A DNA stretch of 64,000 bases from Deltaproteobacteria bacterium (GTDB lineage: Bacteria; Desulfobacterota; Binatia; Binatales; Binataceae): positions 1-64,000 of the forward strand of contig JAJZAI010000006.1 of NCBI GenBank assembly GCA_021799495.1. Direction: 5' to 3'. This document shows positions 41,489 through 45,494 of the stretch, piece by piece. A model generated the notes under the pieces. That model was not told the origin of the DNA. It saw only the letters and a program-made list of their open reading frames with translations, and did no database searches. The first letter of the stretch is position 1. Every line of letters begins with the position of its first letter. A program made the translations under genes and the position numbers.

Positions 41489-41533
41489 TTGACTTCGGGA
41501 GTCTGGCTTTGTTTACTCTGACCGTTCGGTTAG
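41489..41533 (+). promoter_or_regulatory. Promoter with TetR-type operator
   Basis: TTGACT, a 17-base spacer and TTTACT form a good sigma-70-type promoter. Immediately after the -10 is CTGACCG-TT-CGGTTAG (41518-41533), an inverted repeat with one mismatch, of the kind bound by TetR/AcrR regulators. Bound protein would block transcription of the radical SAM gene 48 bases downstream. No TetR gene is in the window. Confidence 0.6.
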
Positions 41534-41580
41534 AATGACTCGGCCGGGCTATTACTGATGGTGCGGTAGAGGAAAACGAG

Positions 41581-43449
41581 ATGGTCTTTCTGCTCTGTCT
41601 GGCCGGTTTTCTGGTCTTTGCCGGCGTGGTTCTGTACCTGTTGCTGGGCCGCGAACGCTATGGAGTGGACCGTCCGGCGCCGGTCGCGCGGCTGGACGCG
41701 CGTCCCGGAGCGGCGCGCGACGGCGCGCTCAAGCCGGAGCCGTTCCGCACGATTCGCATCTATTTCATCAAGCCTTCGCGCTACGACGAAGAGGGCTTCG
41801 TGCAGGTCTATCGCTACGGCGTGCAGCCCAACAACACGCTGACGGTGCTCAAGGCGCTGAACGAAAGCTACAACCGCCGTTACTCGGCCGAGCGCAACGT
41901 TTACCTCGACACCGTGATCTGGGACGAAGTCTGCGACGGCGTGGTCAGCCCCGACACGGTCAAGGCGATCAAGGAAAAGGCGCAGGAAGACGGGGTCGAG
42001 TTGCTGGCCGGAATCGCCGGCGTGCAATCGAACCAGTATCCGCGCGGCCGCGACCTGGCGCTGCAATTTATCGCGCGCGGCGTGACCACGATGATGGGTG
42101 GATTCCACGTCAGCGGCTATCCGGAATCGCGCGAGTTCCTGAATTCGTGCGGCGTCACCACGATTTCGGGCGAGGCCGAAAATCTCTGGGGCGGGATTAT
42201 CGAAGACTATCTGCGCGGCGAGCTGAAGCCGCATTACGCGGTGACCGACGGAATCCGCGCCAAGACCGGCCGCGACGATATTATCGTTCCGGTGATCACC
42301 GAAGCGCAGCTTCCCGTGGTTGACGATCGCTATCTCACGCGGTTTTTCGATCCGACCATGACCACGATCGACACGTCGCGCGGATGCCCGTTCACCTGCT
42401 CGTATTGCAGCGTGAAGAACGTGATGGGGCGGACGATGCGCTCGCGCGAGCCGAACGCGGTGGTCACGTGGGTGCGCGACGCGGCGCGCAACCACGGCGT
42501 GACCTCGCTCTTCCTGGTGGACGACGATTTCTTCCGCAGCCCGCGCTGGGAGGAAATTCTGACCGGCCTGTGCGAAGTGAAGAAGGAATTTCCGTATTTT
42601 AACTTCATGATGCAGGTTGACGTCGACGCGTCGTGCTACGCCAATCTGGCCGAGGGCGAGAGCGAAACCGCCAAGCATCGCCGCAGCCGCCGCTTCACCG
42701 AACTGGCGGCGAAGGCGGGATGCTATCAGGCGTTCGTTGGCATCGAGTCGCTCAATCCCGACAACCTCAATTTCGCGACCAAGTACCAGAACACCGACGA
42801 GCGGCAGAACCGCCACAATATCGAGGAAGTGCGCAAGCACGTGCTCGACAAGTACCGCCGCGTCGTCGACAACTGGCATCGCGTGGGCGTTTCCGTGCAC
42901 GCGGGCTACATGCTCGGCTTTCCGTTCGACGGTCCCGATTGCGGCCGGATCGCGGCGCGGACGCTGCGCAAAATCGGCTTCGATATCGTGTCGTTCTTCA
43001 TCATGACGCCGCTGCCCGGCACCGAAGACCAGGTGCGCTACGCCAAGGAAGGGCAGATCGCGGATTGGGACTTCAACAATCTGGATTCGCAGCACGTGAC
43101 GCTCAAGCACGACAAGCTCGATCGCGCGGCGTGGTATCAGGCCTATCGCGACGCGTTCAGCGGCTTCTATTCGCTGGGCCGCCTGCTCCATACGATTTTC
43201 ACCGTGGCCGGCGGACGCGGACTCGAGGCCGAGGCGCGCCGCGCGACCGTGCGGCAGTTCGTGTATTACTTCTTCAGCTATCGCCAGGGACGCCATCCGA
43301 TGGTCGGCGGAGTCTGGCAGATTCGCCGGCGCGACGTGCGCCGCGCCCCGATCACCGACGACGAGGCGCGCCGCCATTACCTCGGCGGGCTGCGCTTCGA
43401 CGCGATTCTGCGCGGCGAGAGCGATGGCTTCGCGGCGGCGCCCGCCTGA
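41581..43449 (+). CDS. Membrane-anchored B12-binding-type radical SAM protein
   Basis: A 622-residue protein. Residues 2-22 (VFLLCLAGFLVFAGVVLYLLL) are a hydrophobic anchor. Residues about 55-235 resemble a B12-binding Rossmann domain, including GGFHVSGYP, but the DxHxxG cobalamin motif is not seen. The radical SAM cluster is C269-P-F-T-C273-S-Y-C276, with VDDDFFRSP and later strands of the barrel. Similar proteins include methylthiotransferases, hopanoid enzymes and others; the substrate is unknown. GAGG with good spacing precedes the ATG. A membrane substrate such as a lipid or quinone is an inference. Confidence 0.82.
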   Translation: MVFLLCLAGFLVFAGVVLYLLLGRERYGVDRPAPVARLDARPGAARDGALKPEPFRTIRIYFIKPSRYDEEGFVQVYRYGVQPNNTLTVLKALNESYNRRYSAERNVYLDTVIWDEVCDGVVSPDTVKAIKEKAQEDGVELLAGIAGVQSNQYPRGRDLALQFIARGVTTMMGGFHVSGYPESREFLNSCGVTTISGEAENLWGGIIEDYLRGELKPHYAVTDGIRAKTGRDDIIVPVITEAQLPVVDDRYLTRFFDPTMTTIDTSRGCPFTCSYCSVKNVMGRTMRSREPNAVVTWVRDAARNHGVTSLFLVDDDFFRSPRWEEILTGLCEVKKEFPYFNFMMQVDVDASCYANLAEGESETAKHRRSRRFTELAAKAGCYQAFVGIESLNPDNLNFATKYQNTDERQNRHNIEEVRKHVLDKYRRVVDNWHRVGVSVHAGYMLGFPFDGPDCGRIAARTLRKIGFDIVSFFIMTPLPGTEDQVRYAKEGQIADWDFNNLDSQHVTLKHDKLDRAAWYQAYRDAFSGFYSLGRLLHTIFTVAGGRGLEAEARRATVRQFVYYFFSYRQGRHPMVGGVWQIRRRDVRRAPITDDEARRHYLGGLRFDAILRGESDGFAAAPA

Positions 43450-43618: not shown

Positions 43619-43891
43619 ATGATTAGCGATGCGCAAATCGACGCGCTGGCGGCCCATCTGGTGCGCGGCCTTATACAGCGCGGATCGATCAGACCCAAAG
43701 CCGCCGAGAAAGAGCTGGTCGCGTGCGTGGTCGAACTGATGTCGGCGAATTTCGAGACCGAAGCGAAGATCGACGACGAGGCGGATCGGATGGCGGCCGA
43801 GCAGGCGCGCAAGGATCCGCGCGTCGATGCGACGCGGCTGCGCTCGCTGATCCGCCAGCGCCTCGCCGAGAAAAAGAACTTCACGCTCTGA
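43619..43891 (+). CDS. DUF507 family protein (first of two)
   Basis: A 90-residue charged helical protein beginning MISDAQIDALAAHLVRGL and ending RQRLAEKKNF. This matches the N-terminal-half form of DUF507, a small family of unknown function found in deltaproteobacteria and Aquificae. It is followed 37 bases later by a second DUF507 gene, and the two likely work together. Confidence 0.8.
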   Translation: MISDAQIDALAAHLVRGLIQRGSIRPKAAEKELVACVVELMSANFETEAKIDDEADRMAAEQARKDPRVDATRLRSLIRQRLAEKKNFTL

Positions 43892-43928: not shown

Positions 43929-44207
43929 ATGAAACTCAGCGAAGCGCGAACGCTCTATCTGGCGCGGGAATCGCTGGCCAGATTGCGCGACGAGGGCCTG
44001 GCGGAAATTCCCAACTTTGCCGTGGCGCTGCGCCACGCGCGGGAAATTATCGACGGATGGAGCGAGCAGGGGGACGCGGCGGACCTTGCGGCGCGGCGTA
44101 AAATCGAGTCGATCAAGCGCAATATCGTTGAGGGCAGCCCGGAGTGGAACATCCTCTACCGGCGCTATCGGGAAGAAGAACTGCGCAAAAAAGGCCCGCA
44201 ACGGTGA
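43929..44207 (+). CDS. DUF507 family protein (second of two)
   Basis: A 92-residue helical protein starting MKLSEARTLYLARES and ending NILYRRYREEELRKKG. The layout follows DUF507, with the closing Tyr-rich helix. Function unknown. The final codons lie inside a hairpin that acts as terminator for the opposite-strand gene, so the two transcripts converge. Confidence 0.78.
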   Translation: MKLSEARTLYLARESLARLRDEGLAEIPNFAVALRHAREIIDGWSEQGDAADLAARRKIESIKRNIVEGSPEWNILYRRYREEELRKKGPQR

Positions 44208-45164: not shown

Positions 45165-45494
45165 ATGATGGACGCGAACGAATTCTTGCGGCGGGCGGAC
45201 GAATGCCTGAACCGCGTCGCGAAATGGCTCGAAACGCTCGATCCCGACGAGGTCGATTATTCGACCGGCGACGGCGTGGTGACGATCGAATTTCCGGACG
45301 GCGGAAAATTCATCCTGAGTCGGCAGGCGGCGACATCGCAGATCTGGCTGGCGGCCGGCGCGTCGGGCCGTCATTACGACTACGACGCTTCGTCAGATCG
45401 ATGGCGCGACGACAAGGACGGTCACGATCTTTATGCGCGGCTGGCCAGCCTGATCTCGGAGAAGATCGGCAGTCCGGTCGAAGCGCTCGGCTAG
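45165..45494 (+). CDS. cyaY: Iron donor protein CyaY (frataxin homologue)
   Basis: A 109-residue frataxin-fold protein. An acidic first helix (MDANEFLRRADECL) precedes the sheet with VTIEFPDGGKFIL, RQAATSQIWLAAG and the C-terminal LYARLASLISEK helix. These are the frataxin landmarks. It delivers iron or regulates Fe-S cluster assembly. Adjacent ATGs at 45165 and 45168 are equally possible starts. It lies between an AT-rich gap and groES. Confidence 0.85.
   Translation: MMDANEFLRRADECLNRVAKWLETLDPDEVDYSTGDGVVTIEFPDGGKFILSRQAATSQIWLAAGASGRHYDYDASSDRWRDDKDGHDLYARLASLISEKIGSPVEALG

Follow-up and report, generated by a model that had tools for sequence, protein, structure and literature searches.

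What does a radical SAM enzyme anchored in the membrane modify, and which regulator reads the palindrome at its promoter? These questions arise from one gene in a 64,000-nucleotide stretch of DNA (the window) from the genome of an uncultured soil-type bacterium of the family Binataceae, phylum Binatota (89 contigs, 98% complete). A sequence-only reading of the window had described the gene, its promoter and a TetR-type operator, and had guessed at a lipid, hopanoid or quinone substrate. Judged by sequence comparison, its description of the locus, promoter and operator is confirmed, its regulatory half is well supported as to operator and regulator, with tight, ligand-controlled expression a possibility, and its interpretation as a whole is partly supported. 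Hopanoids, sterol-like lipids of bacteria, modify membranes and serve as geological biomarkers; how their fossil forms are interpreted depends on the enzymes that decorate them. Here, we turn a vague guess at a lipid enzyme into a directly testable hopanoid hypothesis by naming a candidate gene, its likely regulator and a regulon of two promoters. The phylum is one on which our literature searches found almost no hopanoid work.

The anchored protein and its promoter

The gene (41581–43449, plus strand; ATG at 41581, stop at 43449) encodes a protein of 622 amino acids, identified by its open reading frame, Pfam Radical_SAM match, orthologues and tree position, whose closest relatives come from Candidatus Binataceae, including Candidatus Binatus soli, in the phylum Binatota. 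Its promoter (41489–41517, plus strand), read directly from the DNA, consists of a −35 element TTGACT (41489–41494), a 17-bp spacer and a −10 element TTTACT (41512–41517). Abutting the −10 is the putative TetR-type operator CTGACCGTTCGGTTAG (41518–41533, plus strand), whose arms agree at 6 of 7 positions; the good promoter and near-perfect operator of the earlier description are both in place. A Shine-Dalgarno sequence, AGAGGA (41568–41573, plus strand), likewise read directly, lies 7 bases 5’ of the ATG.

The N-terminal membrane helix that had been claimed for this protein holds up. We placed it at residues 2–27 (41584–41661, plus strand) from orthologue hydropathy, a predicted helix and the flanking charges. 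An AlphaFold model built with 35 aligned sequences (mean pLDDT 80.6) has a helix at the same residues (local pLDDT ~89 over residues 1–20), a Rossmann-like domain at ~56–196 and a radical SAM barrel. Nearly all Binataceae orthologues keep the ATG, the hydrophobic stretch and a following (L)xGxxRYG motif, and this recurrence excludes, within the family, the mis-called start that had been named as the helix's possible undoing. In most orthologues the N-terminal side of the helix is uncharged and the C-terminal side positive; the positive charges just beyond the helix predict a cytoplasmic catalytic domain.

The search for anchored homologues thus succeeded in Binataceae, but the helix is variable in the other families of Binatia. 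Orthologues in a second family (L064, L066, L095) likewise have a hydrophobic N-terminus, those in a third group (L062, L063, L069) have an N-terminal extension but no helix, and paralogues at 31–38% identity had no N-terminal helix in the sequences compared. On these comparisons the anchor is real but restricted to certain lineages.

The radical SAM core spans residues 265–448 (42373–42924, plus strand) and scores 44.5 bits against Pfam PF04055 (cut-off 29.5), which places the protein in the radical SAM superfamily. Its CxxxCxxC cluster motif (C269, C273 and C276 in RGCPFTCSYCS; 42385–42408, plus strand) is invariant in the 35-sequence alignment and is as normal as had been stated. The model, fold matches and alignment together delimit a B12-binding-like Rossmann domain at residues ~56–196 (41746–42168, plus strand), in which GVQ(S/T)NQ and GGFHVSG are conserved. 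The earlier description of a B12-like domain without DxHxxG therefore stands as to fold and motif, but Pfam PF02310 (B12-binding) gave no match even at E 0.1; two orthologues match it weakly (E 0.004–0.012), and clear matches come from this genome's HpnR and HpnJ. Absence of DxHxxG is common in the B12-type radical SAM class and is unremarkable. Over residues 56–581 the solved structures that share the overall fold are AprD4 (Z 23.2), TsrM (18.7), OxsB (18.4), CysS (18.4) and MgmA (17.7), at 12–18% identity and with different substrates. AprD4, the best match, is not known to use cobalamin, so a B12-type fold is no proof of B12 use, and the window enzyme may or may not be cobalamin-dependent.

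Relation to known radical SAM enzymes

In hopanoid synthesis, HpnH is responsible for the C35 side chain, HpnJ for the cyclitol ether of bacteriohopanetetrol, and HpnP and HpnR for methylation of ring A (PMC12583986). The C-3 and C-2 methylases HpnR and HpnP, which are B12-binding radical SAM enzymes, resemble the window protein in superfamily, in B12-type fold and core, and in hopanoid context, as does HpnJ in being a B12-type radical SAM enzyme that tailors a hopanoid side chain (PMC12583986). In NCBIfam no family rose above its cut-off for the window protein; the sub-threshold matches are B12-type radical SAM families, among them HpnJ, a ladderane-associated family and HpnR. The equivalog comparison covered HpnR, HpnJ, BchE and AprD4. 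The protein scored 39.9 bits for HpnR (TIGR04367; cut-off 650), 49.4 bits for HpnJ (TIGR03471; cut-off 577.6), 38.4 bits for the anaerobic cyclase BchE (TIGR02026; cut-off 481) and, despite the fold match, 19.9 bits for the diol dehydratase AprD4 (NF033070; cut-off 500).

Genuine copies of three of these enzymes lie elsewhere in the genome: HpnR (823.8 bits), HpnJ (718.5 bits) and the adenosylhopane synthase HpnH, also a radical SAM protein, which is encoded by a separate, shorter gene preceded by the same class of operator. The window enzyme is therefore something other than HpnH, HpnJ or HpnR, and we ruled out those identities. Unlike HpnR it carries an N-terminal anchor and is predicted to be controlled by the TetR protein of the hopanoid operon. 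In our tree the family falls far from HpnJ and HpnR, and the long branches leading to these prevent any sister group from being named. A Phyllobacterium protein (WP_188346274) shares ~31–33% identity over most of the length, has no named function and sits in a different neighborhood; matches in a plasmid collection carry generic annotation only. In the open-licence papers that we searched, we found no description of this radical SAM family, no TetR regulator of hopanoid genes and no anchored cobalamin-type radical SAM enzyme.

The operator and the hopanoid operon

Of the 30 Binataceae orthologues with upstream DNA available, 28 have the operator in front; the two exceptions are an extra gene copy in one genome (L060) and a gene with a degenerate site (L061). 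The conserved positions are TGACC and GGT(T/C)A around a variable center, the orientation is uniform in all orthologues except L050, where the site is flipped, and a −35 TTGAC(T/A) is kept at the equivalent position both in the radical SAM orthologues and in the tetR-hpnH promoter described below. A palindrome that overlaps the promoter and is conserved in this way among orthologues is what a TetR-controlled promoter should display, and by these alignments and the 41-genome count given below its occurrence is beyond chance. Outside Binataceae, the operator was absent upstream of the radical SAM orthologues examined in other families of Binatia; the possibility that orthologues would lack the operator, raised by the earlier reading against its own proposal, applies there but not within Binataceae.

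The genome contains 10 TetR genes, and the earlier suggestion that the right one be sought by operator matching proved productive. An exact search of the genome with the window operator gave extra matches only in coding regions and did not reveal the regulator, because the site before tetR differs at position 10, which is C in the radical SAM sites and variable in the tetR sites. By contrast, a position weight matrix of the radical SAM operators, run over the neighborhoods of all 10 TetR genes, returned one clear match, TTGACCGGATGGTTAG, ~160 bp upstream of a 222-amino-acid TetR gene that precedes hpnH. This site scored 13.4; in ~200 kb of this genome no unrelated site scored above 10.9. The TetR gene is present in 40 of 41 Binataceae genomes, and the same −35 and operator precede it in most of those read; a matching operator in front of a TetR gene is the arrangement expected of autoregulation. 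The regulator of the radical SAM operator is thus most likely the TetR protein that heads the hopanoid operon.

That operon runs tetR, hpnH, FPP synthase, alcohol dehydrogenase, squalene-hopene cyclase, dxr, hpnC, hpnD, hpnE, hpnA. Its HpnH scores 371.6 bits (NCBIfam cut-off 225) and its squalene-hopene cyclase 697.5 bits (cut-off 431), and HpnC, HpnD, HpnE, HpnA and Dxr all exceed their NCBIfam cut-offs. An HpnG-like phosphorylase gene, below its cut-off, is convergent to the operon, and a CruF-like gene lies near hpnA. In two genomes of one genus (L089 and L078, genus g15), the radical SAM gene is followed, ~4 kb downstream on its own strand, by tetR-hpnH.

In the 41 Binataceae genomes we counted 60 distinct sites with the combined −35 and operator pattern, spread over 39 of the genomes. 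Assigned by reading coordinates rather than by script, 37 of these precede tetR-hpnH, 23 precede the radical SAM gene and none lies elsewhere; a reversed control pattern gave 0 sites in the same 41 genomes. No operator was found at hpnJ or hpnR of the host genome. From these counts, membership of the radical SAM enzyme in a hopanoid regulon with two promoters is very probable, and since only one other operon, that for hopanoids, has the operator, the enzyme is a good candidate for a hopanoid-modifying activity not described before.

Proposed function, alternatives and history

We consider it probable that the radical SAM enzyme is part of a two-promoter TetR hopanoid regulon, is anchored at the cytoplasmic face and acts on a membrane-resident hopanoid or hopanoid precursor. 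One TetR-family protein would bind TGACC-N4-GGTTA operators just after the −10 of its own operon and of the radical SAM gene and repress both, such that the entire operon from tetR to hpnA and the radical SAM gene would be expressed together. The enzyme, uncharacterised and of B12-type fold, would be tethered by its single N-terminal helix to the inner membrane, on the cytoplasmic side, and would use a 5’-deoxyadenosyl radical for C-H functionalisation (methylation, oxidation/desaturation or rearrangement) of its hopanoid or precursor. Three features, namely the fold, the anchor and the control that it shares with the hopanoid operon, jointly point to tailoring of a membrane-bound hopanoid, and tailoring of a hopanoid or other membrane lipid from the cytoplasmic face appears the likeliest role. 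The shared two-promoter regulon lends the earlier hopanoid guess strong circumstantial support; common control does not imply a common substrate. More tentatively, and at somewhat less than even chances, the protein may belong to a class of hopanoid-tailoring radical SAM enzymes that is new, membrane-anchored and distinct from HpnH, HpnJ, HpnP and HpnR, with its own dedicated TetR protein and a modification as yet assigned to no gene.

The regulon might instead serve membrane remodelling, with the enzyme modifying another lipid (a phospholipid acyl chain, a lipoprotein acyl group or an ether lipid) as hopanoid content changes. We think this unlikely, although it accounts for the lipoprotein N-acyltransferase-like genes that adjoin the orthologue L068 and several of the 31–38% paralogues, and for the orthologues outside Binataceae, which are not adjacent to hopanoid genes in other Binatia families. 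The hopanoid operon is, however, the sole other target of the operator in Binataceae, and no N-acyltransferase gene was recognized among the near neighbors of the radical SAM gene there. Another isoprenoid drawn from the operon's precursors (a carotenoid, a quinone or squalene itself) is an improbable substrate: FPP synthase, dxr and the CruF-like gene suggest that the operon feeds isoprenoid supply generally, but most of its genes (hpnH, shc, hpnC, hpnD, hpnE and hpnA) are hopanoid-specific, and the operator with its −35 occurs at no other promoter in the 41 genomes.

It is also very improbable that the palindrome functions in RNA, as a hairpin of the 5’ leader, rather than as a DNA operator. 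CUGACC-GUUC-GGUUAG can pair in RNA by way of a G-U pair, the predicted fold of the leader is slightly more stable than those of shuffled sequences (z −1.9), and all orthologues but one have the site in one orientation. Against this, the palindrome overlaps the expected start point, so that its first half would be untranscribed; in variants whose last base is A the outer RNA pair is lost; the site is flipped in L050 and before hpnH in L230, as DNA sites may be; and the same site is carried by a TetR gene.

Returning to the hopanoid regulon, its history is suggested by other families of Binatia, whose radical SAM orthologues share 57–60% identity and, in genomes too few for a firm pattern, show no clear tracking of hpnH. 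In at least three of these families a TGACC-N4-GGTYA-type palindrome stands just upstream of hpnH (L227, L230, L233, L235), and in one it is the exact window operator, reversed; near hpnH at these four loci we found nothing related to the Binataceae TetR. Operator control of hpnH accordingly looks old; most simply, the radical SAM gene would have come under this control within Binataceae. An accessory tailoring enzyme need not accompany every hopanoid operon, and in several Binataceae genomes that have hpnH no radical SAM orthologue was detected, although absence counts for little in genomes that are mostly or all metagenome-assembled. The clade of 31–38% paralogues was also checked for a link to hopanoids, and its distribution does not follow hpnH.

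Gene neighborhood offered no route to function and was rejected as a guide, as the neighbors in Binataceae are mostly housekeeping genes (ptsP-like, PHP, DUF507, frataxin, groESL); synteny with ptsP is older than the operator. DUF507 is represented in the window by two separate adjacent genes (43619–43891 and 43929–44207), one matching the N-terminal half of the Pfam model and the other its C-terminal half, and the split pair is conserved in many Binataceae. The frataxin (CyaY) gene (45165–45494) lies just upstream of groES/groEL. In six other Binataceae loci (L076, L078, L079, L088, L089 and L091), the radical SAM gene is followed on its strand by a gene for a DUF1499 protein with hydrophobic segments at its N-terminus.

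Among the 31–38% paralogues (L096–L101 and L112), several stand tail-to-tail with apolipoprotein N-acyltransferase-like genes, whose products contain LNT_N and CN_hydrolase domains in the two tested; in L068, a 49% orthologue, the lipoprotein N-acyltransferase-like gene is directly upstream. These arrangements are possibly a second pairing of a radical SAM enzyme with lipid modification. Finally, one genome (G021, contig C23:9298–9812) carries a disrupted duplicate of the radical SAM gene, interrupted by in-frame stops.
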